From Flavobacteriales bacterium (lineage in GTDB: Bacteria > Bacteroidota > Bacteroidia > Flavobacteriales_D > Sanyastnellaceae), in the NCBI GenBank assembly GCA_947465255.1, contig CANIAA010000005.1:1-35779 (forward strand): a stretch of 35,779 nt of DNA. Direction: 5' to 3'. Shown one piece after another: positions 9,060 through 29,860 of the stretch. How positions within the stretch are numbered: position 1 is the stretch's first letter; every line of letters begins with the position of its first letter. The notes under the pieces are model-generated. The model had not been told where the DNA came from and ran no database searches. It saw only the letters and a program-made list of their open reading frames with translations. The translations under genes were made by a program, and so were the position numbers.

Positions 9060-9118
9060 GGCTAACGAAAAATAATCCTTTCCTTTTAATGGGCCGCGTC
9101 TCGACAAACGAACAAAAA

Positions 9119-9147
9119 AAAACCGCCCCCAAACGGAAGGCGGTTTT
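9119..9147. terminator. bidirectional terminator between rlmH and the endonuclease gene
   Basis: A 9-base-pair stem, AAAACCGCC / GGCGGTTTT with an 11-base loop, has a T-run on both strands: five T after the stem on the plus strand and about nine on the minus strand. It lies between convergent genes and can end both the rlmH transcript and the reverse-strand endonuclease transcript. Confidence 0.88.
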
Positions 9148-9167
9148 TATGATTAGTAATTTTCTTC

Positions 9168-11564
9168 CTAGCGAATAACCAAGCGCGTAGTTTGCGCTGA
9201 TTCACCACTGCGAATTTCTACTGTGTAAACACCCGCGCTGATTTCCTCGTCGATGGCAATCAAATTCAAACCACCGTTCAGATTTTCATTGGAAGTGAAT
9301 ACCACTTTACCCGTCATGTCGAGCACGTTCAATTGTGCCGCAGTTGGACGTGATGCGTGTGTCTTCACTACCACACGTCCTTCAGATGGGTTTGGGAAAA
9401 CAGAAAGATCGAATTGAACGCCCATTCTTTCTTCTACTGCGGTGCCTACCAGTGAGACTTCAGAAGTGAATGAAGGACACTGATCGAATTGCTGAATTTC
9501 TACACTGTAGTTGCCTGCCGTTGTCCAATCGTAGGTGGCTGATGTAGCACCGGCAATTGGGTTGCCATCCAAATACCACTGGTAGCTTTGAGCAGGGTCG
9601 ATGCATGTAAGTGTTGTGTTGTTGAATATAAACTCCGGAGTGAATGGAGTTAAATCAGCAAAACGGACATAACAAGGGTACGTAACCTGGTCAATAAATG
9701 CATTGCGGTTGCGCTGCTCGGATTGGATGTATTCGTTGCGCGTAATTTCCCAGCTGTCCGGCAAATCCTGGAAGTGCCACTGCTTCAGCAAGTGCTCATT
9801 TTGACCATACTGAATGATGATTGAAATCTGTTCAGGAAGGCTGAAATCGTTGGTAGCTGAGTTGTTTTTGGTTGCCTGATACATCACGGCTCTTGCTGCA
9901 TTTCCTTTGAAGCTGTCGCGCACTTCATAGACAGTTTGACCGAGCTCGTTTGTGCCTCGAAGACATTCTTCGTAGGTGCTTGTTGGGTTTACCACTTCAC
10001 CATAAGGATAATTGCTGCGCACAGCATTTACTTCGTTTTGCCAAACAGGTGAAAGGTTGTGAAGATCACTTACTTCAAACGATTGATCGAAGCCGGCATC
10101 GAAGTAAGTAGGCATCCAGCTTTGCGGATAGTGGTGTTCGCGGCTGAGGCTTGTCCACTGGAAGCCGGCTTCAAACAAATAGGGAACACCGCTGTACTGA
10201 CATTCTACCATGTTTTGAGTTACACCATTCACTACGGTATCACGCACATAGAAGTTATTGATAAGCGTACTGATGTAATTGCTATAGTACACCTGGAAAT
10301 AGTTAGAAGGATTCATCAAAGTAGTCAGATCAGTAACGAGTGATGGGCTATTCACGTTGATGCCATTGTACAACGATCCGAAGTTGGGAGCCGGAGTATC
10401 AACCGTTGATACCGTAGGATTGGTGGTCAGATAGTTTTCAAAGCCTTGTTGACCATTGAAAGCAAACGCTGCAAGGCTATACGTAAAACCAGCTTCAATA
10501 CCGCGTGCATCGAAGCTGCCGCCTTCACCTACATAAACAACTTGAGCGCTGCCAATCCACTGACCGCGAGCATATGTTGTATTGTCGGTTGGTACTTCCG
10601 TTACAGGCGCTCCTTTTTTACGCAGTACTATGTACCCTTCAGCTGGTGATGCTGATGCTGTGAGCGTCGTTTGAAAATCCCATGAGCGCACGTTGTTAAA
10701 GGAAACAGATGATGCTTGCGAGGTTGGTTCGGTTGCAGACCCTCCCGAAACAGCATATAGATTCACAACGTAAGTAGGTTCACTTGTATCGTTGCTGGAA
10801 ATCGTTACGGTGCAGAAGTGAGAACCATTCATCGTTGGTGAAAATGTGATTGTAATCACGGCTGAAGCACCTGCGGCTATAGTCGTGGGAGTAGTTCCTA
10901 CGGAAAACGCAGAAGCATCGGCTCCTGTAATGGAGATGTCAGAGATAAGCAGATCGCTTCCCAAACCAAGATTTTGGATGGTGATGGTTTCATTGGTGGC
11001 ATTGCCCATGAATAATGTGAATCCGCTTGGAATGTTGTTGGTGCCATCGGTAACATTTATTTCTTGAGCGTTGCCGGCGGTTGGTGCTATGAGTGATATT
11101 TCATCGAGTGCCACATTGTGTCCGGAAACTTTTTCGGTGAAAAACCAACGGATGAAGCGCGTGTTGGCTGCAGGGTTATCCGTAAACATGGTGAACGCTG
11201 TTGCAGGAAGCTCACCACCCATGAATGAATGAAGTGTGGTGAAGTTTACACCATCAGCACTTTCTTGAACGGTGAATGTTCCTTGGAAAGCGCCACCGCT
11301 ATTCTGTCCTTTGATATAGTAGTTTAATGCGCCCGGTTCTTCGGCAAATTCGAGAAGGACGAAATCGCCGGTGGCATCCAAACGACAAGCTTGTCCGTTT
11401 TGACCGTTGGCGTAGCGGGTGTTGCTCGCTCCGAGCGACTCCGACCAACCGGCAGGTGCATTCACATCGAAGTTCCATGAGGTTGGGAGGATGGCTTGGG
11501 CAGCGGCTACTGTGCTGTAAATAGCCATCAGCGCCGTGCAAATAAAGGTAAGTGTACTTTTCAT
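9168..11564 (-). CDS. secreted endonuclease I family protein with T9SS sorting domain
   Basis: This is probably an extracellular nuclease exported by the type IX system. A signal peptide (MKSTLTFICTALMAIYSTVAAAQ) is followed by a beta-sandwich region, about residues 25-165, and a choice-of-anchor-D/ASPM-type domain, about 170-275 (LGLGSDLLISDISITGADASAF). After a linker, the endonuclease I domain spans roughly 395-650. It has the hallmark SREHHYPQSWM with its candidate catalytic histidine, and DLHNLSPVWQNEVNAVRSNY. An Ig-like segment precedes the type A sorting domain (LSVFPNPSEGRVVVK to TTRLVIR). At 798 residues it is much longer than plain EndA enzymes because of the added domains. It starts 23 bases after the TonB receptor stop and probably shares its transcript. 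Confidence 0.9.
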   Translation of the reverse strand: MKSTLTFICTALMAIYSTVAAAQAILPTSWNFDVNAPAGWSESLGASNTRYANGQNGQACRLDATGDFVLLEFAEEPGALNYYIKGQNSGGAFQGTFTVQESADGVNFTTLHSFMGGELPATAFTMFTDNPAANTRFIRWFFTEKVSGHNVALDEISLIAPTAGNAQEINVTDGTNNIPSGFTLFMGNATNETITIQNLGLGSDLLISDISITGADASAFSVGTTPTTIAAGASAVITITFSPTMNGSHFCTVTISSNDTSEPTYVVNLYAVSGGSATEPTSQASSVSFNNVRSWDFQTTLTASASPAEGYIVLRKKGAPVTEVPTDNTTYARGQWIGSAQVVYVGEGGSFDARGIEAGFTYSLAAFAFNGQQGFENYLTTNPTVSTVDTPAPNFGSLYNGINVNSPSLVTDLTTLMNPSNYFQVYYSNYISTLINNFYVRDTVVNGVTQNMVECQYSGVPYLFEAGFQWTSLSREHHYPQSWMPTYFDAGFDQSFEVSDLHNLSPVWQNEVNAVRSNYPYGEVVNPTSTYEECLRGTNELGQTVYEVRDSFKGNAARAVMYQATKNNSATNDFSLPEQISIIIQYGQNEHLLKQWHFQDLPDSWEITRNEYIQSEQRNRNAFIDQVTYPCYVRFADLTPFTPEFIFNNTTLTCIDPAQSYQWYLDGNPIAGATSATYDWTTAGNYSVEIQQFDQCPSFTSEVSLVGTAVEERMGVQFDLSVFPNPSEGRVVVKTHASRPTAAQLNVLDMTGKVVFTSNENLNGGLNLIAIDEEISAGVYTVEIRSGESAQTTRLVIR

Positions 11565-11587
11565 TTTGGTGTACTTGGTGTTGTTTC

Positions 11588-14314
11588 TTATCGAATGGTT
11601 AGAGTTAATCCTGCTGTCCAGCGCAAGCCCATACCATAGTATACGCCTGCAGATGTTGCGTTAAAACCGGGGTTGCCTTGTGGCTTGTACTCGTTGTTAA
11701 GCGCATCGGTCACGAATACTTCGTTCGTCACGTTCAGAATATTGATGCGCAAGGCGAGGTTATAATCTTTGGATATGTCACGACCATAGCCCATGCTAAT
11801 ATCGATGGTTTGATACGCAGGCATTTTCCATGATTGCTTGCCCGCGTTTTCTCCGGATAAACCATCGGGATTGAATTCCGCAAAGTTGTTGTCGAAGTAA
11901 GTGATACGAGGCTTGATGTATAGTCCTTTGATGGGGCTATAGCGCATGGCGAAACTCGTTTGAAATTGAGCCGCATCTCCAACGCGAATATTGCGTGCAT
12001 CAAATTCAATTGGATCGCCTACTGTTACGCCGTTTTCGTCTGTGACATAAGCGGTAGCTGCGGACTTCCAGCGCCAGTCGCCTACTGAGAGAACACCTTC
12101 CATGCTCAACGATTTCAAGGCGTTCCATTCGGCATCCAACTCTACTCCTTGGTGCAACGCGCGCATTCCGGGAACATTGTAGTAGAAGTTTTCAGTACCA
12201 TTGGTGCGTGTGCCTGTTACGGGGCGGTTGTTCCAAATGGTGTAGTAGGCGTTTAATGTAATCTTGAATTCTTTGGTGTTGTAGTTCGCACCAACTTCAG
12301 CAGAAGAGATTTCTTCGTTGCGTAGGTTGTTGAAGGTTTCTAGGCTCGTGCTGTAGTAGGTGTTGGCCAGCATAGGCGCGCGCGAAAGAAATCCGGTGTT
12401 CATGAATACCGATGTGCGCTTGTTGAAGCGGTAGTTGAAGCCCGCTTTAACTGTTCCGCCATTGAAGTTTTTCCAGCCACTTTCCATTTCATTGCCGAGT
12501 GAATCGCGCATAGCAAAATGGTCGATGCGGTTGTAGCGGCTGTTCGACATGGTTGCGTTCAAGAAAGCAGTATAGCTCTCACCCGAATATTCCGCCAGCA
12601 TAAACAATCCCGATTGAAGCACATTGCTCGTGATGTTGTAGTTGATGCGGTCGCCTTCCTGGCGAACTACCTTACCTAAAAGGGTGTTTTCAAATTCAGA
12701 AGCAATGTTCTGGTCTTGGATATAACGGTTTTCTGAACTGCTCTTCTTGTCGATCAATGCATAGTCTGCTCCAAGTAAATCATACACGATTTGGTAGCGA
12801 TCTACGGTGTAATAGCGAATGTCTAATCCGCCTGAGAGCTCCAGTTGCTTATTTATTTCAGACTTGAAAGTAGAAAGAAGGCCATACCATTTGTGGTTGT
12901 TGATGCTCGATTGCAAGAAGTATGATGCAGCATATTGGTTTGGGTCATCGACGTAGTTGAGGTTTGCAGGACTTATAACGACTCCCAAAAAGTTGGTGAA
13001 TGTTTTCGTGTTCTTGTCATACATGTATTGAAAGTCGATATGACCGGTAGAGTCTTGCAAGGATGTATTCGGACGCATACCACCGCCATTTCCAAACGAT
13101 GCATACAATACGTTTGATAGTGCAAACTTTTCGCTGGGTGTCCAGAAGTGCTTGAAGTTTACAATGGGTTTGTGGTAGTAGTTGTTGCGGCCTGATTGTA
13201 CTTCAACGGGCGCATCTGCATCATAGCGATTTCTCGCCAGGTAGCCCCATTCCGAGTTAAAGCGAAGGCCGCGATCGAGTGGGACCTGTTGTGCAAAAGA
13301 ACCGGCGGTGTCCACTCCTTGCGAGAGTGCGTAGTCAACATCGTAAAACGATAAGCGGTTTCTGCCAAGGCGCTGCTCATGTTCTTGAGGGCTTCCCATG
13401 GCAGAAAGGGAGAACGAATGCTTGTCGAATTGCTTTTGAACTTTCAGGAAGTAAAACATTTGCTCGGAGTTGAGTTGCTCCACCCATCCGTCGTTGGTGC
13501 GATAGGAGAATGCTGCAGTAACTCCCCAGTTGCCGCGCAAACGACCACTGTTGATACCGAATCCCTGACGCATCATATTGTTGTTACCCAACTCAGAAGA
13601 AAGCTTTACGTTGAATTTTTCTTCCATGCCCTGCGTAAGAATGTTGATGTTTCCACCAATCGAAGGCACGGCTAGTTTAGATGCACCGAGTCCGCGCTGT
13701 ACTTGTGTCTTCTGAGTCACATTGTCTAATCCAAACCAGTTGCTCCAATACACCCAGCCATTTTCCATGTCGTTCATGGGAATACCATCGACCATCACGG
13801 AAACGTTGCGCTGATTGAATCCGCGGATGTTCACACGCGCATCGCCATCGCCACCACCCGACTGCGTGGCATATACACCCGGCGTTGTGTTGAGAATCAT
13901 GGGCAAGTCGCGCGAGGCAAGTTCTTCTTTGATTTTGATCGAAGAGATGTCGCTGAAGGCAACCGGTGTGCGGCGACCTACGGCCATATCGGAGGTCACG
14001 TTCACTTCGCTCATGGCAGCTCCTGATTGAAGCGCGAAATCGAATGTTTGATTTTCGCCGGCAACGACTACATTTATTTCCAATGGTTCCATACCTACAT
14101 AGCTTGCACGCAACGTGTATGAACCTTTTTCGAGGCGAATTGAATAGGTGCCATCTAGATCAGTAGCAACGCCATTGCCCTCTGAAGCTGTTATGACTGC
14201 ACCTGGTAAAGCTTCATTGGTAGTTGCATCGAATACTTTTCCGCTGATAGTTGCTTGAGCCCAAGTGAAAATGGAAGTATTCACCAACAAGATCAAGAAG
14301 AGAAATTGTTTCAT
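11588..14314 (-). CDS. TonB-dependent outer-membrane receptor with N-terminal carboxypeptidase-like domain
   Basis: This is a 22-strand-type receptor that takes up a ligand through the outer membrane using TonB energy. The signal peptide (MKQFLFLILLVNTSIFTWAQ) is followed by a CarboxypepD_reg-like domain, about residues 22-105 (ISGKVFDATTNEALPGAVI), and then a plug domain with VNIRGFNQRNVSVMVDGIP and IGGNINI. The rest is a long barrel ending in GLRWTAGLTLTIR. The ORF opens at 14362, but the signal peptide begins at the internal ATG at 14314 (908 residues). Its substrate is not evident from the sequence. Position directly upstream of a secreted endonuclease suggests nucleic-acid fragments or phosphate as ligand, which is inference. 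A terminator separates it from the lamin-tail gene upstream. Confidence 0.92.
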   Translation of the reverse strand: MKQFLFLILLVNTSIFTWAQATISGKVFDATTNEALPGAVITASEGNGVATDLDGTYSIRLEKGSYTLRASYVGMEPLEINVVVAGENQTFDFALQSGAAMSEVNVTSDMAVGRRTPVAFSDISSIKIKEELASRDLPMILNTTPGVYATQSGGGDGDARVNIRGFNQRNVSVMVDGIPMNDMENGWVYWSNWFGLDNVTQKTQVQRGLGASKLAVPSIGGNINILTQGMEEKFNVKLSSELGNNNMMRQGFGINSGRLRGNWGVTAAFSYRTNDGWVEQLNSEQMFYFLKVQKQFDKHSFSLSAMGSPQEHEQRLGRNRLSFYDVDYALSQGVDTAGSFAQQVPLDRGLRFNSEWGYLARNRYDADAPVEVQSGRNNYYHKPIVNFKHFWTPSEKFALSNVLYASFGNGGGMRPNTSLQDSTGHIDFQYMYDKNTKTFTNFLGVVISPANLNYVDDPNQYAASYFLQSSINNHKWYGLLSTFKSEINKQLELSGGLDIRYYTVDRYQIVYDLLGADYALIDKKSSSENRYIQDQNIASEFENTLLGKVVRQEGDRINYNITSNVLQSGLFMLAEYSGESYTAFLNATMSNSRYNRIDHFAMRDSLGNEMESGWKNFNGGTVKAGFNYRFNKRTSVFMNTGFLSRAPMLANTYYSTSLETFNNLRNEEISSAEVGANYNTKEFKITLNAYYTIWNNRPVTGTRTNGTENFYYNVPGMRALHQGVELDAEWNALKSLSMEGVLSVGDWRWKSAATAYVTDENGVTVGDPIEFDARNIRVGDAAQFQTSFAMRYSPIKGLYIKPRITYFDNNFAEFNPDGLSGENAGKQSWKMPAYQTIDISMGYGRDISKDYNLALRINILNVTNEVFVTDALNNEYKPQGNPGFNATSAGVYYGMGLRWTAGLTLTIR

Positions 14315-14333
14315 GTATGCTAAGGTTATGAGC

Positions 14334-14358
14334 AAAAGAAAGGGGTTGAAAACCCCTT
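14334..14358 (-). terminator. terminator after the lamin-tail-domain gene (minus strand)
   Basis: An 8-base-pair stem, AAGGGGTT / AACCCCTT with a three-base loop, is followed on the minus strand by TCTTTT. It lies between the lamin-tail gene and the TonB receptor start. Its T-rich end also contains TTCTTTTG, one base off the -7 consensus, so a promoter for the receptor may be overlaid on it. Confidence 0.78.
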
Positions 14359-14384
14359 CCAATGAATAGAGTCTTGTTTATGCT

Positions 14385-15305
14385 CTATCGAGCTACGATT
14401 TTTTGAGTCGATTTTTTGCCGTCCGTGTATACTACTTCAATGAAATAAACACCCGCTTCTGCCTGCGGCAAAGTGATATTCGCATAGGTAACGCCAAATA
14501 AGCTGCGACGGTCTATGATGCGGCCATCTGCGGCAAACAAGGTAATTGTCTGCATGTTGATTGAGCCTTTCACGGCAAACGCACCTTCCAAAACCGGGTT
14601 AGGGAAAATGCTGAAAGTTGCAGCAGACAAATCGTTTACTGAGTTAGGGTTGATGTTGACACAATCGCAAAGGTGTTCACCCAACTCGGTGAAGGTGTCT
14701 GAAGGCAAGCTGTCCCACTCGGCAGAAGGATCGAAAACATCAGGGTTGGTGCTAACACCCGTCAAAACCGTTTGTTTGCGAATCATGGTGTTGTCTTGTG
14801 TCCACCAGCGTGTAGCAGGGTCGCCAGGAACCCACCATCCACCGCCCGGATCTTCACCAATTTTACCAACGATATCGAGTATTTGGTTTCCGTTCTTCAC
14901 GAGAACGAAAGCGTCGTCTCCGTTGAAGTACATAGGTGAGTTTGATTGAACATAAACGGGGTTGAGGAACGTATCTGCTGCCGCAATCAGTTCGGCATCA
15001 AGAGGAATCTCTGTGCCTGTACCGCCAAGGTCACGCTTGTCGAGTGCAAATACGCGCACTTCATGAGGCATAATCACACCGGTTATAGGCAGAAGCATTG
15101 GGTTTCCGGCTCCGTCACGGTCGCGGCCCATGGAATATAACCCATCCAACACAATTGGGTTGGGGGTGGGGTTATAAAGCTCTATCGCCTTGTTGTTATT
15201 AGCACCTTCAACATATTCGGAAATGAAAATGTCGAAGCAGTTATTTTGAGCATTTACGCTCGAAGCTGTCAGGGCGACAGCAGCGCCGAATAGAAGTTTT
15301 TTCAT
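14385..15305 (-). CDS. secreted lamin-tail-domain protein with T9SS sorting domain
   Basis: The protein has 306 residues from the internal ATG at 15305, which gives the signal peptide MKKLLFGAAVALTASSVNAQ. The ORF track's 13 extra residues precede it. The first part, about residues 20-190, is a lamin tail domain (FISEYVEGANNNKAIELYNP, then ALDKRDLGG and GDDAFVLVKNGNQILDIVGKIG). The C-terminal 75 or so residues are a type A sorting domain (FSIFPNPVLEGAFAV to GKKSTQKIVAR). Bacterial lamin-tail domains are often linked to secreted nucleases and phosphoesterases, and here an endonuclease I gene is nearby. No catalytic domain is visible, so it may be a binding or cell-wall-surface partner. It is transcribed on its own promoter. 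Confidence 0.88.
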   Translation of the reverse strand: MKKLLFGAAVALTASSVNAQNNCFDIFISEYVEGANNNKAIELYNPTPNPIVLDGLYSMGRDRDGAGNPMLLPITGVIMPHEVRVFALDKRDLGGTGTEIPLDAELIAAADTFLNPVYVQSNSPMYFNGDDAFVLVKNGNQILDIVGKIGEDPGGGWWVPGDPATRWWTQDNTMIRKQTVLTGVSTNPDVFDPSAEWDSLPSDTFTELGEHLCDCVNINPNSVNDLSAATFSIFPNPVLEGAFAVKGSINMQTITLFAADGRIIDRRSLFGVTYANITLPQAEAGVYFIEVVYTDGKKSTQKIVAR

Positions 15306-15331
15306 GCGGTTTCTTGAATTAAGCAAGCGTA

Positions 15332-15339
15332 CAAAAGTA
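15332..15339 (-). promoter_or_regulatory. -7 promoter element for the lamin-tail gene (TACTTTTG, minus strand)
   Basis: On the minus strand TACTTTTG matches TAnnTTTG exactly and lies 26 bases before the ATG. No clear -33 element is seen at the expected distance. The remaining bases up to about 15499 contain no ORF I can support. Confidence 0.5.
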
Positions 15340-15499
15340 TACACAAGTGGGGTTTAAGCAAGCGTCTGCGGTAAACTTTACCGAGATTTTAACCCGTATT
15401 AAGTTTTGGTTTACACAGGCCACCATGGTGTTTTTTAAACGTCTGATAATCAAGGGTCATAAAAATAACAACGAATAGTTCGTAGAAGTAGTTAATAAC

Positions 15500-15530: not shown

Positions 15531-15578
15531 CCACCCCTGAAAAACAAAAGACATACGGTGAATTTGATCAAAACTTTT

Positions 15579-18500
15579 ATGCGCATGAAAACCTTTAGAA
15601 TGCTGCTCGCGGCGAGCTTGGTAATTATTTCCATGAACGCCCATGCTGCCTGGGATATTTACAAGTCCGGACTAACTGTAAACGGTGGTTATTATGACTG
15701 CCAGCTCGATGGGATTTCTCCCAACTTTCAGCACGCGTATTTTGGAAGATACACTTCGGGAGGATCAATCGAAGTGACCTTCGCAGAGCTGCTTACATTC
15801 AAGAATGGAGCATCGAATGTGTGTTCGGCGACAATGCGCTATCGCGTCTATCGCACCTGCGATACCGCCCCATCGTTCAGCTCTCTTTCGTTGCCATTCT
15901 GCTGCAATTTTGGCGGAACAGACTGTTCAGGAGGTGGTTGTGGCCCGGATGTAAATAACACGGGCGACCAAAAATGGCGCGGCGCACCTTCTTCAACCCT
16001 GAATTTGTTGACCGGGCTAACCGCCTCAGGTATGTATGTAATTGAAGTTTACTTTGAAGCAACCGGTGATGATTCTGGTGGTTGCACGAATACGAAGTTT
16101 TCCAGCAATGGGGGAGCTAATTTCAGAGCGTATTTCGAATATGAAGTCAGCGATTATTTCAGTGATTCAAACTTTACAACTCCAACCTGGAGCGGTGATG
16201 CATCAAACTTCACGGTCGCCAATAACTCTACTACTTCGGGTCTTACAGGCAGCGAAGCTAATAGAACGCATACTGCAAAGTTGAACGTAGCTTCTGGCTC
16301 CGGATCTCAATATGTCAGCACTCAAATAGCATCTTGGGAACAACAGCAAGAATGGTATTTCTGGGTAGGCCGCGACGGTGTGGGTGGGGCTCCTTCTGAC
16401 CTGGATGCGAATAACCAGCAAGCAATTTACCTCTACGCAAATGAATCAAATTTGGAATCAGGCACTGTCGATGGTTATCGCATTTTGCTGGGGCAATCGG
16501 GTACGTCCTTCATTCGCTTGCAGCGAATCGATAATGGTGCCGCGACAACCGTTTTTACTTCAAGTAATGGTATCGCCTCCGCCCTTACAGATTATGGTAT
16601 CACCTTTAAAATAACACGATCTCAGCTTGGTGTCTGGACCATCTTTACCTCTACTCTTCCAACAAATAGTGTGAATACGCAGTCAACTCCTACACCTAAT
16701 AGCTGTCCGGAGTCGCTTTCGACCGTAAATCAGGGAAGTGTTACCGACAATACTTACGCACCTGCTGCTAATGGGTTTTTCGGCTTCATGGCTATTCACG
16801 ACAATACTGCTGAGGGTCGCGCAGCGGCTGAATTTGACAGCTTCCGATTCCGTGCTTTGCCTCCGGACACCTATGTTCAGTTGAATGGTGCTGTAATCGG
16901 TTCGTTGAGCGAAGATGCAACGCTCGCGAATAACTACGCAATCGGAGTAGACATATTCAACCCTTCTAGCACAACTGCGACCAGTATTCAAATTTCATTA
17001 ACAGGCGATGCCACTCGTGTGGGCGGGGGTCCTAATCCATCAACAGCCTATGCGGCGAGTTACACGACACAAACGTTAACTTGGGCAGCCGGTACTAGCG
17101 GTACCAAGTATATTTATGTTGACCCGTCAAATAATACGCTTTGCGACGATATCGCTGAATTGTTGTTTCGATTGCAGAACGTAAGCGGAGGAACCAATTC
17201 ATTTATTGCAGATGCCGACTCGCTGTATTTAACCGTTATCGATGATGACAAAGGTTATGAAACTCTGGTTGACGAGAACTTCAATGATGGAAACATCAAT
17301 GGCTGGAAGACCAATGGAACAGCCTGGAGTGCCAACACCACCTCGCCCATAGAAGGCACTCATTCTGCACGCCACAGCACACAAGCCGTTGCGGGTCAGT
17401 CGTCATTGGCCTATCCTATTGATGATGCAAACTTGATTGGGCTTAGTACAACTTGGAGATTCGAGGTAGCATTTTCCAATGACGCAAGCGCCAACAATAA
17501 CTTCCAGATTTTCTTGGCTGCTAACGACTCGAATTTCTACAGCGCAGGTATCGACGGATACGCTGTTGTTGTTGACCAAAGCTCACTGCCATCAGCCGGC
17601 ACCGCCGACTATATTCGCCTCTATCGTGTAACCGATGGTGCCTATGCTTCAAGCCCAATCATCAACTCTACAACAGATTGGGTTGACAACGTAAATGGTG
17701 GAACGCGCGTGGGTGTGCAGGTAACCTTGGGAGAAGATGGAACCTGGGGCTTGAGCGTTGATAATAATGGTGGATTTAATAACTTAACCTCACTTGGAAC
17801 AGGAACGGATGCGTCGGGTGGCGCAATTACTTTCCCTATCGTGAAGTTTTTCGGCGTTCGCTTCAAGTATCTCGCTGCGGCTTCAGACCTATTTAGAATC
17901 GATGACATTTCAGTAACTCAATCCGGTTGTAAGCGTTTGTGGTATAGTCAAAGCACCGGAAATTCGAACGGGTCTATTTGGGCTCCAACAGCAGTTGGCA
18001 CACCTCAAGCAGTAGTTTCAGGTCGCTACGATCGTTTCCAAATTCAGTCGGGTCACACCGTTACGGCTACAGGAACGTGGTTGCTGAACGACTTATCCAT
18101 TAATTCAGGTGCTACGCTTACAGGCGGCAGCAGCGAGATGCGTGTGCATGGAAACTGGATTAACGAAGGGACATTCACGGCGGGTACTTCAACGGTTGTG
18201 TTCAAAGGTCAGGCCGCTCAAACCGTTGGTTTTGCCGGCGGGGCATCTCAAACTACGTTCAACAATTTAACGATTGACAACGATGGTTCGAATGTGAGCT
18301 TGACACCTTCTCTGGTTTCCGTTACCGGCTTGGTTTCAATGCTTGAAGGCACATTACAAACCAATGGTAATTTGCGTCTGGTATCGAATTCAAGCGGATC
18401 TGCCTCCATTGGCGAAATCAAATCGGGTGCAGCAGTTTCCGGTAATGTGGAGCTTCAGCGATATACACCGCCTATTCCAAGTAATCAGGGATACTGGTTC

Positions 18501-20495
18501 AACCTCTCATGTCCGATTCAAGGACAGACCATTGCGTCCTGGAACGATGATATCGTGACAACGGGATTCACCGGCTCTGATTTTCCGTCCTACGGATTCA
18601 ATAATGTTCAGTACTACAACGAACCGGCTGCGGGAACCATGAATACAGGTTATGTCGGTGTTACGAATGTGACCAATGCAATAGAAACGAATCGCGGTTA
18701 TTACGTTTGGTTAGCCGGAGCCGCACAAAACCTGGATAACACCGGTTTAATTCAAAGCGGTCAGGTTTCCATTCCTCTTAGCTATACGGTTACTTCGCCG
18801 GGTGGAATCTTTGACTATGGTTGGAACCTTGTCGGAAACCCATATCCTTCTGAAGTGGACTGGAATCTTGTTTCAGCATCGCTCAGCGGACCTAAGGTAT
18901 ATTACGTGTATGACTATCAATCGAGTTCATACAAGTTCCGCAACGCAACTACGAATACAGGAACAGCGTCACGCTACATCGCACACAGCCAAGGTTTCTT
19001 GGTGAAGGTCAACGCTACCTCTCAGAACTTGGTCTTCCGGGAAACGCATAAAACCAACACAGGGGCAGCTTTTGAGCGAAGTGAAGATGCTAACGCTTCT
19101 TTCGTTGCTCTTCGTTTTTCAAAAGGGTTGCGTTCCGATGAAAGCATGCTGTTCTTTAGCGATGCAGCAAATGGAAATTACGATGAACTCGACGTAGCTG
19201 ATTTGCAGAGCTTAGCTGATGATGCAGTGGAAATGACACTGCAGGCAGCAGATGGAGCCCCTCTTGCGCAGGATGCACGTCCTTACAGCGGTGATATCGA
19301 AATTCCCGTTGTAGTAGAAATGCCTGAAGCCGGTACCTACCAGTTTATGGTGGTTGACATTCAGAATCTACCTTTGGGTGCATGCCTTACGCTGGAAGAT
19401 GTTGTGACCGGTCAGACAACCACGCTTTCTGCAGGAACAGTAATCTCCGTAACAACCAACGAGCCTTTCCAGGGTCAGCGTTTTATAATTCGATCAACTC
19501 CTTCAGCGAACACGATTGTAACAGGAAGCACTTGCTATGATGTTGCCAACGGCTCTATTGATGTGTCGGTGCCATCAAACAACTGGAACATTTCATTGAG
19601 CGCTGACAACGGATATGAATTTATGGCTCAAGGGTCGGTTACATTTGATCATTTAGAGGCCGGTCAATATTTGCTTCAGATCGAACACGCTACGTGTGGC
19701 ATTTCTTCTCAGATTATTAACGTTGAAGAGCCGGACGCTGTTCGCTCTGTAATTACAGGCACAGAAACAGTGGAGTGTAATCAGGGTAGCGCGGGCATGT
19801 TCTCTTTTGAAGTAGAAAATGCCGGTTGGTTTACTTATGAATTGCGCAATGAAGCGAATGAATTGGTCCGTTCAGCAAATGTTGAAGGCACCACGGCTAT
19901 TATAGAGGGTTTGACCGCAGATGTTTATACCCTGCACGTGTATACTACATGCAGCAACGAATCACTGGAAGTTGATCTACGCGATGAGCTTGCAAATAGC
20001 ATAGTTGTTGAACAGCAGATCGAAGCCCAGGGTGAAAACGAGTATGTGATTCAGTTGACCGCTCAGCTCGCTCAACCGGGAGTGTGCACGTGGGCTTTCT
20101 CAAACGGACTGCAGCTTTTCGGTAACACCGCAGAACTTGTTTTGCACGGAGAAGAAGTGGTAACCTACACGGTTGCTTGCTCAGGCGTTTGCGAAGTGAG
20201 TTCGCATGGCACGTTGCAGGCGTTGAGCTTGTCAAATAGTGAAGAAGCCTTCTCTCAAAACATCGTGTTCACACAATTGGCTGATGCGGTTCAACTTCAG
20301 TTTGCCGATGTGAACGCGCTTCAGGTAGAGGCCCGCATTTTCGATGCACAAGGCCGATTGGTTGAAAACACTTCGTTCAACATAACCGGAGGTTCTGTGC
20401 GCGAGTGGTCAACAAGTGCATACAGCAAAGGCGCATATACGCTGGTACTTGTTGCCGGCAATGAGACGTTGTTTACGAGAAAATTCATGAAGTAA
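15579..20495 (+). CDS. giant secreted surface protein with T9SS sorting domain
   Basis: The function is unknown; the architecture suggests a cell-surface or secreted adhesin-like protein of about 1638 residues. After the signal peptide (MKTFRMLLAASLVIISMNAHAA) comes a disulfide-rich region (CCNFGGTDCSGGGCGPD). A jelly-roll-like domain follows at about residues 190-425, and then a Calx-beta-like stretch at about 430-565. A second copy of the jelly-roll-like domain spans about 565-790 (compare VDGYRILLGQSGTSFIRLQR with IDGYAVVVDQ..DYIRLYR). A beta-helix-like region (GATLTGGSSEMRVHGNWINEG) and Ig-like segments follow, and the last 75 or so residues are a type A sorting domain. The ORF can begin at GTG 15558, but the ATGs at 15579 or 15585 give a better signal peptide. 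It stands alone between its own promoter and terminator. Confidence 0.85.
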   Translation: MRMKTFRMLLAASLVIISMNAHAAWDIYKSGLTVNGGYYDCQLDGISPNFQHAYFGRYTSGGSIEVTFAELLTFKNGASNVCSATMRYRVYRTCDTAPSFSSLSLPFCCNFGGTDCSGGGCGPDVNNTGDQKWRGAPSSTLNLLTGLTASGMYVIEVYFEATGDDSGGCTNTKFSSNGGANFRAYFEYEVSDYFSDSNFTTPTWSGDASNFTVANNSTTSGLTGSEANRTHTAKLNVASGSGSQYVSTQIASWEQQQEWYFWVGRDGVGGAPSDLDANNQQAIYLYANESNLESGTVDGYRILLGQSGTSFIRLQRIDNGAATTVFTSSNGIASALTDYGITFKITRSQLGVWTIFTSTLPTNSVNTQSTPTPNSCPESLSTVNQGSVTDNTYAPAANGFFGFMAIHDNTAEGRAAAEFDSFRFRALPPDTYVQLNGAVIGSLSEDATLANNYAIGVDIFNPSSTTATSIQISLTGDATRVGGGPNPSTAYAASYTTQTLTWAAGTSGTKYIYVDPSNNTLCDDIAELLFRLQNVSGGTNSFIADADSLYLTVIDDDKGYETLVDENFNDGNINGWKTNGTAWSANTTSPIEGTHSARHSTQAVAGQSSLAYPIDDANLIGLSTTWRFEVAFSNDASANNNFQIFLAANDSNFYSAGIDGYAVVVDQSSLPSAGTADYIRLYRVTDGAYASSPIINSTTDWVDNVNGGTRVGVQVTLGEDGTWGLSVDNNGGFNNLTSLGTGTDASGGAITFPIVKFFGVRFKYLAAASDLFRIDDISVTQSGCKRLWYSQSTGNSNGSIWAPTAVGTPQAVVSGRYDRFQIQSGHTVTATGTWLLNDLSINSGATLTGGSSEMRVHGNWINEGTFTAGTSTVVFKGQAAQTVGFAGGASQTTFNNLTIDNDGSNVSLTPSLVSVTGLVSMLEGTLQTNGNLRLVSNSSGSASIGEIKSGAAVSGNVELQRYTPPIPSNQGYWFNLSCPIQGQTIASWNDDIVTTGFTGSDFPSYGFNNVQYYNEPAAGTMNTGYVGVTNVTNAIETNRGYYVWLAGAAQNLDNTGLIQSGQVSIPLSYTVTSPGGIFDYGWNLVGNPYPSEVDWNLVSASLSGPKVYYVYDYQSSSYKFRNATTNTGTASRYIAHSQGFLVKVNATSQNLVFRETHKTNTGAAFERSEDANASFVALRFSKGLRSDESMLFFSDAANGNYDELDVADLQSLADDAVEMTLQAADGAPLAQDARPYSGDIEIPVVVEMPEAGTYQFMVVDIQNLPLGACLTLEDVVTGQTTTLSAGTVISVTTNEPFQGQRFIIRSTPSANTIVTGSTCYDVANGSIDVSVPSNNWNISLSADNGYEFMAQGSVTFDHLEAGQYLLQIEHATCGISSQIINVEEPDAVRSVITGTETVECNQGSAGMFSFEVENAGWFTYELRNEANELVRSANVEGTTAIIEGLTADVYTLHVYTTCSNESLEVDLRDELANSIVVEQQIEAQGENEYVIQLTAQLAQPGVCTWAFSNGLQLFGNTAELVLHGEEVVTYTVACSGVCEVSSHGTLQALSLSNSEEAFSQNIVFTQLADAVQLQFADVNALQVEARIFDAQGRLVENTSFNITGGSVREWSTSAYSKGAYTLVLVAGNETLFTRKFMK

Positions 20496-25993: not shown

Positions 25994-28900
25994 ATGCGCC
26001 TTTTATTGCAACATATCAGCGTCTGCTTCTGTTGTGTCTTGGTTGCCTTCAACGCGTTGGCTCAGGCGGAATGGATTACCAATAAAGGTCAATGGCCCGA
26101 ATCGGTTATGCTGAAAACGAGTTTGAAGGCTGGTACACTATGGACCGAGCGCAGTGGTTTTACCTATCAGCTGTATGATCCGGAAGGCTTGGCGAAACTG
26201 CATCAGGCACACGGACAACCACGGGGTGGAGTTTTGCGCGGTCATGTCTACAAGGTGAAATTTGTTGACGGCAGCGCTGCATCTGTCTCAGGCGATGAAA
26301 GGAATTCACATTACTACAACTATTACACGTCATCAGAAACATCGAAACAAGGTTCCTTCTGCGCCTCATATGGAAGAGCGCGTTTGCACGATGTCTATCC
26401 GGGAATTGACGTGCAGTTGTATAGCGCCGGGAGTAGTTTGAAGTATGATTGGATTATTGCACCGGGGGCAAACCCCGATAGTATTGTGCTTGAATTTGAA
26501 GGCGCCTCGTGTTCACTCGTACATAGGGAGCATGGAACGGACTTGCTGATCGAAACAAGTGTTCAGACAGTGGTCGAGAAGCAGCCCTATGCCTATCAAA
26601 TTCTAGATGGGGCTATGCGCGAAATTCGATGTGATTATGTGCTGGAGGGAAGCATCATTCGATTTCGAGTGGGGCGCTACGACCATAGTTTGCCGCTGGT
26701 TATTGACCCGGAAGTTGCCTTCTCGACATTCATCGGTTCTGCTGCCAATAACTGGGGATTTACAGCATGCGATGACGTTGAAGGTAATATGATTGCCGGA
26801 TCCATTGCCTTCGCACCCGGTTATCCAACAACAACGGGAGCCTTTTCTTCCACATTTAACGCTGCGGCAACGAATGAATTTGACATTGCTATTTCGAAGT
26901 TCAATACCGACGGAAGCCAGTTACTTTACAGTACATATTTCGGAGGCAGTTTTCAGGAAACGCCTCACAGCGTAATTGTTGATGGCCAGAATCGAATCAT
27001 TGTTTTCGGGGCAACAGGCAGCTCTGATTTTCCAATTTCTGCGGGTGCTTATCAATCCATGTTGCTAGGAGGGCCTGCATCGAATATTCAGTTTATCGGG
27101 GCAGAAGAATATCCTTTGGGTACGGATTTGTTTGTCTCGAAGTTTAATGAAGATGGTACGTTGTTCGCCTCCACATTCATAGGCGGATCTGAAAACGATG
27201 GGCTGAATGCGGGGAACCAGCTTTTTTACAATTACGGAGATATTTTTCGCGGAGAGGTCAATGTGGACGCATCTGATAATATCTATGTGGCAAGCGTCAC
27301 AAGGAGTTCAGATTTTCCAATAACGCAGGGAAGTTTTGGCGGAGGAGATTATGATGGTATTCTTTTCAAGCTGTCTCCGGCATTGAACACCCTTCTGCAA
27401 AGTCGGTATATCGGCGGTAATGAAAACGACGCTTGTTATGTTGTTGAATTTAATCAGGCGGGACAGGTCATAGTGGCGGGAGGTACGCAGAGTTCGAACT
27501 TCTCGTTGATAACACCAACAGCGGCCGATGCTTCTTCGAATGGCGAAACGGATGGCTTTCTTGCAATACTCGATGCTGCGACGCTAAATACATTGAGTGG
27601 AACGTATGTCGGAACATCTCTCTATGATCAAGTGTACTTCGCGCAAAGCGATGAGGCCGGGTTTATCTATGCATATGGTCAAACGAAAGGCAATATGCCT
27701 ATTACCCCGGGGCTTTATGGGCAGCCGGGCAGTGGACAGTTCATTTCCAAGTTCGCTCCGGATTTGAGCACACAGGAATGGAATACGGTTATTGGAACAG
27801 GCAACGGAATCAATATTTCCCCTACAGCTTTCCTGGTGAGCGAGTGCGGGCAGATTTATATCAGCGGTTGGGGTGGCCAAACGAATAGTAACTATGCCGG
27901 CGGATCAACTTCGGGCTTGCCTACAACTCCGGATGCCTTTCAGGGAACAACCAACGGAAGCGATTTTTACCTGTGTGTTCTCACACCCAACGCACAGGAT
28001 ATTCTGTATGGATCTTTTTTAGGTGGCAATCAAAGTGGTGAGCATGTTGATGGCGGCACTTCTCGATTTGATAAAAATGGATCCGTTTATCATGCAGTGT
28101 GTGCGGGTTGTCAAGGCAACAGTGACTTTCCCACCACTCCTGGCGCCTGGAGCAGCACCAATGAAAGTCAAAACTGTAACCTTGCCGTATTTCGTTTCGA
28201 TTTGTCTGCCATTCAAGCGGAGGTAGCCATCAATGGCCCTTCTACTGTATGTGTAGGTGAGTCGGTGAGTTTTGAGAACAGCACAATTGGTGCTGCAACT
28301 TACCTATGGGATTTTGGCGATGGAGGTACCGGCACTGTTGCAGAACCCTCTCATTCCTATGCCCAGGGTGGTTCGTATACCATTCAAATGATAGCATCTG
28401 ACAATGCGCTTTGCGTAACTGCCGATACAATTACTATTGCGATTGAGGTGGTACCTGATGTTGCACCAACCATACAATCAGGTGTAGTGATATGCGAAGG
28501 ACAAACCACACAAATCAATGCAACCGGCAGCAGCAACCTTCACTGGCTTTTTCATTCAACGCTCTCGGCCCTCGATGTGCCCAACCCAATTGCCCAACCT
28601 ACCACGACTACTACCTATTACGTTGTCGATGAAAACGTGTGCGATGCTGAAACGCTGAGTGTAGTGGTTGAAGTGAGTATACCGACAGCGTTCGCCACCA
28701 ACGACACTTCCATATGCATCGGACAATCCGTTCCCTTGACGGTTACAGGAGGAGTTTCTTATGCGTGGTCGCCAACTACATTCTTGAACACCGCCAATTC
28801 GGCAACACCAACCGCTAGTCCATCACAAACAATTCAATATACCGTCACTGTAACAGATGCGCACGGATGCACCGATGAAGATTCGCTGACGATTGATGTG

Positions 28901-29860
28901 TATGATACAGCTCCCGGTGGTTTGTCATATCCTGTGCTGAACGTTTGCCGTGGTTCGCAAGTGCAATTGCAAGCGGAGCCGGGCACAGCTTGGCAGTGGT
29001 TCCCTCCTTCCTCGCTTAGCGATGATCAGGTTCAGGCGCCTTTCGCTTCGCCAAGCGATACAACTGTTTACATCGTACAGTTAACCAACCCTTGTGGTGT
29101 TGGATTCGATACGGTTACCGTGAATGTCATTTCACCTTTTTTGCAAGTCTTTGGAGGTGGCAGCATTTGCCTTGGTGATACTATTTCTGCGTGGGCGTCG
29201 GGTGCGTTGAGCTACAGCTGGAGTCCTTCAATATGGGCGAATCCAAGCGATGAGTCACTCACTATTCTTTCGCCTGAAAACACTACTGTTTTTGAAGTTA
29301 CCGGTGTGGACGCATTCAATTGTGTCTGGACGGAAGAAGTGACGGTGTCGGTATATGAACAGGTTGATGTCGAAGCGGGACCTGATGCATTTTTTAATGT
29401 TCCGGATAGCGTCATGCTCTATGGCAACGCACTGGGTTTTGATTGTTACTGGTGGCCTTCGGAAGGGCTGGCATGCGATAGCTGTGAAATGACTCTGGCT
29501 TCTCCAACAGAGCCAACTGTATACCACCTGGCCATTGTCGATGATTACGGCTGTGTGAATGAAGATTCGGTTTTCGTCCGACCTTTTTATCCGGTGTTTG
29601 TGCCCAACACATTTACCCCTGACGGTGATGGGGTGAACGATGTATTTCTGGTTTCCGGACAACCACAGTTAGGCTTTCACCTGGTTATTTTCGATCGTTG
29701 GGGCATCACGGTTTTTGAATCGTTCGACATGAATATACCCTGGACTGGTGATGCCGGCGCAGGCTATTTCGCACCGAATGATGTCTATAACTGGGTGCTC
29801 GAATTTGACTCCCTCGATAGGCGCACAAAGCTGATCGGTCATGTGGCATTGGTGCGTTGA
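25994..29860 (+). CDS. large secreted protein with PKD/Ig domains and gliding-motility-type C-terminus
   Basis: This is a probable T9SS-exported surface protein of 1288 residues. The signal peptide (MRLLLQHISVCFCCVLVAFNALAQ) precedes an N-terminal domain, about residues 25-240, opening EWITNKGQWPESV. Residues 245-740 hold SBBP-like beta-propeller repeats with recurring (Y/F)STYFGGS, G(A/V)(T/S)xSSDFP and TT(P/G)GA(W/F) phrases. A PKD domain at about 745-830 (ATYLWDFGDGG, then GGSYTIQMIAS) is followed by several Ig-like repeats ending in TTYYV/TVYIV/TVFEV. The last 90 or so residues are the gliding-motility-associated C-terminal domain (NTFTPDGDGVNDVFLV; IFDRWG), the type B sorting signal. It stands between unrelated genes with no partner porin visible. 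Confidence 0.9.
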   Translation: MRLLLQHISVCFCCVLVAFNALAQAEWITNKGQWPESVMLKTSLKAGTLWTERSGFTYQLYDPEGLAKLHQAHGQPRGGVLRGHVYKVKFVDGSAASVSGDERNSHYYNYYTSSETSKQGSFCASYGRARLHDVYPGIDVQLYSAGSSLKYDWIIAPGANPDSIVLEFEGASCSLVHREHGTDLLIETSVQTVVEKQPYAYQILDGAMREIRCDYVLEGSIIRFRVGRYDHSLPLVIDPEVAFSTFIGSAANNWGFTACDDVEGNMIAGSIAFAPGYPTTTGAFSSTFNAAATNEFDIAISKFNTDGSQLLYSTYFGGSFQETPHSVIVDGQNRIIVFGATGSSDFPISAGAYQSMLLGGPASNIQFIGAEEYPLGTDLFVSKFNEDGTLFASTFIGGSENDGLNAGNQLFYNYGDIFRGEVNVDASDNIYVASVTRSSDFPITQGSFGGGDYDGILFKLSPALNTLLQSRYIGGNENDACYVVEFNQAGQVIVAGGTQSSNFSLITPTAADASSNGETDGFLAILDAATLNTLSGTYVGTSLYDQVYFAQSDEAGFIYAYGQTKGNMPITPGLYGQPGSGQFISKFAPDLSTQEWNTVIGTGNGINISPTAFLVSECGQIYISGWGGQTNSNYAGGSTSGLPTTPDAFQGTTNGSDFYLCVLTPNAQDILYGSFLGGNQSGEHVDGGTSRFDKNGSVYHAVCAGCQGNSDFPTTPGAWSSTNESQNCNLAVFRFDLSAIQAEVAINGPSTVCVGESVSFENSTIGAATYLWDFGDGGTGTVAEPSHSYAQGGSYTIQMIASDNALCVTADTITIAIEVVPDVAPTIQSGVVICEGQTTQINATGSSNLHWLFHSTLSALDVPNPIAQPTTTTTYYVVDENVCDAETLSVVVEVSIPTAFATNDTSICIGQSVPLTVTGGVSYAWSPTTFLNTANSATPTASPSQTIQYTVTVTDAHGCTDEDSLTIDVYDTAPGGLSYPVLNVCRGSQVQLQAEPGTAWQWFPPSSLSDDQVQAPFASPSDTTVYIVQLTNPCGVGFDTVTVNVISPFLQVFGGGSICLGDTISAWASGALSYSWSPSIWANPSDESLTILSPENTTVFEVTGVDAFNCVWTEEVTVSVYEQVDVEAGPDAFFNVPDSVMLYGNALGFDCYWWPSEGLACDSCEMTLASPTEPTVYHLAIVDDYGCVNEDSVFVRPFYPVFVPNTFTPDGDGVNDVFLVSGQPQLGFHLVIFDRWGITVFESFDMNIPWTGDAGAGYFAPNDVYNWVLEFDSLDRRTKLIGHVALVR

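Follow-up and report, generated by a model that had tools for sequence, protein, structure and literature searches.

What role a TonB-dependent receptor plays when it is encoded between a lamin-tail protein and a secreted nuclease is the question raised by a small locus in a Flavobacteriales genome, analyzed here within a stretch of 35,779 nucleotides (referred to as the window). The initial annotation placed a receptor, an endonuclease I (EndI) with a sorting domain, and a secreted lamin tail domain (LTD) protein together on one strand. It proposed a surface system that cuts environmental or biofilm DNA and imports either the fragments or the released phosphate. We favor the reading that the operon encodes a module for TonB-dependent scavenging of nucleic acids, in which the nuclease cuts, the LTD protein helps to capture, and the receptor imports, and we give this reading a probability of roughly two in three.

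Operon layout and encoded proteins

All three genes lie where the initial annotation put them, and they form an operon on the minus strand of the window in the order LTD protein, TonB-dependent receptor, and EndI (Table 1), with gaps of 70 bp between the first two genes and 23 bp between the receptor and EndI. The LTD open reading frame spans 14385-15344, and its likely start is the ATG at 15305; a longer GTG start would overlap the candidate promoter. The receptor starts at an ATG at 14314. The promoter element TACTTTTG is unchanged across the window and four close relatives. The terminator that ends the operon is strong, bidirectional, and common to the convergent rlmH gene. Flanking genes are the housekeeping genes rlmH and pdxA, with ispD farther out, plus a divergent gene for a large T9SS protein. 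Given these housekeeping flanks, a candidate promoter element of its own, and a strong terminator, we regard the operon as a unit complete in itself. The hairpin between the LTD and receptor genes, a consensus match, could be an attenuator giving more LTD protein than receptor.

Table 1. Coordinates of the operon and its signals in the window
Feature	Position	Strand	Details
LTD protein, T9SS type A tail, first operon gene	14385..15305	-	306 aa; PF00932, PF18962
TonB-dependent receptor, N-terminal carboxypeptidase-D-like domain and plug	11588..14314	-	908 aa; PF13715 (CarbopepD_reg_2), PF07715 (Plug)
EndI, T9SS-exported	9168..11564	-	798 aa; PF04231, PF18962
EndI catalytic domain, aa 473-626	9687..10148	-	R475-E476-H477, N513; aligned to 1oup/1ouo
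Candidate Bacteroidota-type promoter TTG-N19-TACTTTTG, upstream of LTD gene	15332..15361	-	Read directly
Terminator-like hairpin, LTD-receptor gap	14338..14360	-	10 pairs and T-tract; consensus match only
Intrinsic terminator ending operon	9118..9148	-	13-pair stem and T-tract

The divergent neighbor encodes a 1,645-aa T9SS protein of unassigned function (15558-20495), which has its intergenic promoter region in common with the operon and was found in the closest relatives only (L038, L039, L047, and L055). A second protein of unassigned function, of 1,288 aa with DUF7948, PKD, and a CHU_C type B T9SS tail, is encoded at 25994-29860. The receptors of L038, L047, L055, and L100 are 82 to 92% identical to that of the window, and several of these loci have the same gene order (rlmH, pdxA, ispD). 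These four come from MAG records titled 'Chryseobacterium gleum', and the titles of other close relatives go no further than Flavobacteriales, so the record names look doubtful.

EndI belongs to the Endonuclease I family, scoring 81.5 bits against Endonuclease_1 (PF04231; cut-off, 25). Its architecture comprises N-terminal beta domains, an ASH/HYDIN Ig-like domain, the EndI catalytic domain, and a T9SS tail. The protein can be aligned with the Vibrio Vvn/EndA structures (1oup/1ouo), and R475-E476-H477 and N513, which correspond in this alignment to Vvn E79-H80 and N127, are invariant in all 78 aligned relatives. We take the catalytic roles of these residues to be those established for Vvn. The sorting domain seen on EndI in the initial annotation was confirmed by a Por_Secre_tail score of 40.5, and the LTD protein is likewise secreted (27.2; cut-off, 27). 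TIGR04183 gave 49.0 for EndI and 30.4 for the LTD protein (cut-off, 23), and with C-terminal tails and signal peptides that were read directly, both proteins are T9SS type A substrates.

The LTD protein reaches PF00932 marginally (34.5 versus a cut-off of 34.3). We accepted the assignment despite this score because its AlphaFold (AF2) model (pLDDT, 86.5) retrieves the lamin A/C Ig fold (6rpr_B and 6ghd; Foldseek probability, 1.00), together with T9SS tails, from the PDB, and the protein thus has an LTD Ig fold. The LTD region resembles the N terminus of ExeM (NF033680; E = 6e-18). The protein is not an ExeM/NucH enzyme, in which an LTD is fused to an OB fold and an EEP nuclease, as it scored 64.2 versus 1,300 bits and matched over the N-terminal part only. 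We looked for a basic DNA-binding charge on the LTD protein and the receptor and found none in either (pI 4.6 and 5.6, respectively).

The receptor model (AF2; pLDDT, 84.6) is a TBDR barrel. In agreement with the initial annotation, which had likened the locus to a polysaccharide utilization locus without a SusD, no SusD-like lipoprotein was matched among the genes on either side, and the receptor scored 70.7 bits against SusC/RagA (TIGR04056; cut-off, 368.25), over the N-terminal part only; the locus is thus not of the SusCD type. A fold search returned generic TBDRs only, the nearest solved structures being the siderophore and PQQ receptors PqqU, FhuA, and Fiu at 12 to 15% identity, and these neighbors gave no clue to the ligand. 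In 37 aligned receptor relatives, the plug motif NDMENGWVYWSNW shows little or no variation, and by analogy with known receptors its loop would face the ligand. The fold neighbors would also suit a receptor for the uptake of a metal complex or cofactor, with the nuclease co-located only through a common response to phosphate or iron limitation, and it is general knowledge that phosphate-stress genes are often clustered. However, the association described below spans three families of nuclease and two of surface protein and recurs in many families of Bacteroidia, and among the annotated conserved neighbors none is a metal or cofactor gene, so that we regard this explanation as improbable.

Conservation of the module and exchange of its nuclease

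A scan of named genomes yielded 65 loci, most of them with LTD, receptor, and nuclease genes in one order, and roughly 80 regions taken from a sample of 200 genomes of the order, which are related by descent, agreed with this. HMM scores failed to separate two receptor groups, referred to as clades A and B, and a tree of 168 receptors was used instead, in which the relatives of the window's receptor form a fully supported clade of 132 (clade A). Within four genes of the receptor, an LTD gene is present in 124/132 clade A loci, a nuclease gene in 122/132, and both in 118/132; many of the loci outside these counts are found at the end of a contig or belong to the basal trio L085, L088, and L089. 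As controls we took 20 other receptors, all from a single complete genome of the order (G109), and none of them had either neighbor. The difference is significant by Fisher's test (p = 6e-16, with 5 duplicate loci removed and shared ancestry ignored).

Across the class, the receptor is present in 102/295 sampled Bacteroidia genomes. Among the best 30 loci, which include that of the window's own genome, the LTD gene lies upstream in all 30, and the short flank holds EndI in 17 and the PLD nuclease in 6. The co-occurrence across Bacteroidota that the initial annotation proposed to look for is therefore present, and the adjacency of the three genes is class-wide in Bacteroidia rather than peculiar to this genome. 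Nor does the receptor fall with one of known, unrelated ligand; it lies in a clade of its own, which contains no receptor of known ligand that has been solved or named.

Some relatives depart from this pattern. In two of the 30 best loci (L289 and L290), the LTD and receptor genes are kept but the short flank holds no nuclease. Unrelated neighbors are seen in members of the superfamily that are basal or Bacteroidaceae-like. Superfamily receptors of the Bacteroidaceae-like loci L293, L295-L298, L300, and L301 have no nuclease neighbors in the short flank and are accompanied by phosphoglucose isomerase, a DPBB lytic transglycolase, and unknowns; the cargo of these receptors may differ. A Rhodothermia genome encodes a type I phosphodiesterase/nucleotide pyrophosphatase after the receptor in the place of the nuclease (L085:10609-11889). 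Near a receptor outside the superfamily, a 611-aa T9SS protein fuses LTD-like and OB (DUF5689-like) regions (L184:9003-10835).

The nuclease slot of clade A is occupied by EndI in 73 loci and by an unrelated OB-fold/PLD nuclease in 48, and the tree requires at least three switches between them; L083 carries both. In two branches, the third gene encodes a T9SS protein of about 731 aa with an OB fold (DUF5689-like), an fn3-like domain, and two PLD-like domains, weakly similar to the nuclease NucT. That two nuclease families with no relation to each other can replace one another is good evidence for nucleic acid as what matters, not some other role specific to EndI.

In the large family f9, the operon extends into a split 5'-nucleotidase, made up of a 5'-nucleotidase C-terminal domain protein of 236 aa and a UshA-type metallophosphoesterase of 300 aa. 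The split enzyme is encoded downstream of EndI in 41 clade A members, and in two genomes (G058 and G109) the operon's 5_nucleotid_C gene is the sole one found genome-wide. The catalytic half has a twin-arginine-like start, and the C-terminal half has a lipobox in 35/49 cases. The genes for this periplasmic nucleotidase accompany those for a receptor and a surface nuclease, which implies that nucleotides gain access to the periplasm. No 5_nucleotid_C gene was found in the window's own genome (77% complete) or in close relatives. This absence, the acidic LTD protein and receptor, and the relatives with no nuclease or with unrelated neighbors count against the scavenging reading.

Sister receptor clade and a possible link to natural transformation

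The sister receptor clade (clade B) was sampled at 18 loci, and DUF5689/DUF5017 proteins and an EEP nuclease are encoded alongside the receptor in every one of them. The EEP nuclease has no T9SS tail and is periplasmic, and the split 5'-nucleotidase adjoins the receptor in 8/18. Loci of the clade B form are L222-L241, and also L304 and L305 from Bacteroidaceae-like genomes (family f65). A Pfam search for DUF5017 in 28 genomes returned few members, and a protein query led to 113 genomes. In the genus g34, either module A (G064) or module B (G019 and G103) fills one and the same slot, between DPP-IV and the 5'-nucleotidase pair (loci L137, L226, and L230). Among these three loci the flanks are 67 to 71% identical for DPP-IV and 56 to 64% for the metallophosphoesterase half of the 5'-nucleotidase, which suggests an in-place exchange of equivalent systems.

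Together, the unrelated nuclease in the slot, the 5'-nucleotidase in the operon, and a sister receptor with another nuclease uphold the initial annotation's reading of a nucleic-acid system. One part of it is less likely: phosphate passes porins, and released phosphate is therefore an unlikely cargo for the receptor. The same neighbors bear on a role of the receptor in signaling or on the export side, for example in T9SS function or protein release in the manner of Oar/PopC, with the LTD protein and nuclease as surface cargo for biofilm eDNA remodeling or defense. Both proteins encoded beside the receptor are exported and carry T9SS tails, LTD-receptor pairs without a nuclease exist, and secretion of the Myxococcus protease PopC is reported to need the TBDR Oar (PMC6434023). 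However, the T9SS has its own translocon, and the recurrence of the 5'-nucleotidase, like the presence of a periplasmic EEP nuclease, is best explained if nucleotides enter the periplasm. We consider an export-side role improbable.

A different role is raised by Riemerella anatipestifer, in which the adjacent genes RA0C_RS04915-RA0C_RS04920 are both essential for natural transformation (PMC8459023). Like clade B, they encode a TonB-receptor-like protein and an adjacent DUF5689/DUF5017 surface protein, a match made by neighbor architecture only; the corresponding partners in clade A are an LTD protein and a secreted nuclease. The function reported for the Riemerella pair is transformation, not feeding. 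By extension, the receptor could be an outer-membrane DNA channel for natural transformation, with the LTD protein as a surface DNA binder and the nuclease trimming or processing incoming DNA. Transformation is also lowered in R. anatipestifer tonB mutants, but the authors ascribe the tonBB effect to iron (PMC8383284). ComEC was found in 12/12 relatives tested, but it is near universal and thus uninformative. The carboxypeptidase-like domain reported for RA0C_RS04915 (PMC8459023) is absent from the clade B receptors tested, and clade A and B receptors are only about 22% identical. A placement of clade B beside comEC and recA, suggested by the Riemerella locus-tag numbers, was looked for in L222 and not found; there, the 339-aa and 666-aa neighbors are an enolase-like protein and an Na/H exchanger. 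Secreted nucleases and a 5'-nucleotidase suit nutrition better than recombination, and we judge a transformation channel unlikely for this operon.

A broader proposal covers both clades: a TonB-dependent receptor superfamily across Bacteroidia would import nucleic acid, as oligonucleotides and perhaps long DNA, for feeding in the nuclease-linked clade and for transformation in the DUF5689-linked clade, with DNA uptake having evolved from or into a nutrient importer. We offer this tentatively, as an idea with the odds somewhat against it.

Proposed route and its place among known systems

For the scavenging reading, cutting, export, and the pathway context are well supported as predictions from sequence. 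At the cell surface, EndI, anchored or released via the T9SS, would cut DNA and perhaps RNA. The LTD protein, exported by the T9SS and located on the surface, may then help to capture the polymer or the pieces cut from it or to pass them on, and the receptor would import oligonucleotides or nucleotides into the periplasm with TonB energy. There, periplasmic nucleases and the 5'-nucleotidase would yield nucleosides and phosphate. We infer capture by the LTD protein and import by the receptor, as well as the size and ligand of the cargo, a nutritional purpose, and phosphate control.

Loci for extracellular DNA degradation have been described in "Candidatus Izemoplasma" and Lutibacter (Wasmund et al. 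2021, PMC8289736). Like Shewanella ExeM, these likewise tie secreted nucleases, LTD domains, and nucleotidases to DNA as a nutrient, whereas in the window the LTD and the nuclease are separate T9SS proteins linked to a dedicated receptor. Both PMC8289736 and PMC11495043 list nucleases and nucleotidases; TonB has 0 occurrences in the former and is named once in the accessible text of the latter, without a tie to nucleases. Polysaccharide utilization loci of the SusC/D type also combine a surface depolymerase, a surface binding protein, and a TonB-dependent importer, but the window differs in having no SusD, a receptor that is not SusC by curated score, and nucleases and nucleotidases as enzymes. 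Export of an EndI-type or other nuclease by a T9SS type A tail is likewise known from Flavobacterium johnsoniae NucA (Fjoh_4723; PMC10994853) and the Riemerella T9SS DNase family NF052644. Unlike the products of the window's operon, these are single T9SS cargos without a receptor partner in the accessible descriptions. No prior paper joining a TonB receptor with an extracellular nuclease, a nucleotidase, and DNA use was found in a search that had subscription journals and preprints outside its scope and that returned mainly PMC8289736 and PMC11495043, and the module is apparently undescribed as a nucleic-acid harvesting system. Rather than as a SusCD system, we file the operon as a variant among loci for TonB-dependent scavenging.

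Sediments, water, and biofilms contain much phosphorus, nitrogen, and carbon in the form of nucleic acids, for whose degradation Bacteroidota are leading candidates (PMC8289736). If the receptor is an importer, it would supply a missing step, the crossing of the outer membrane by pieces of nucleic acid, and would provide both a testable TonB-dependent route and a set of marker genes by which nucleic-acid users could be recognized in metagenomes. In Bacteroidota, for which no outer-membrane DNA channel has been settled on, the likely link of clade B to the Riemerella transformation genes would further tie DNA feeding to DNA uptake.
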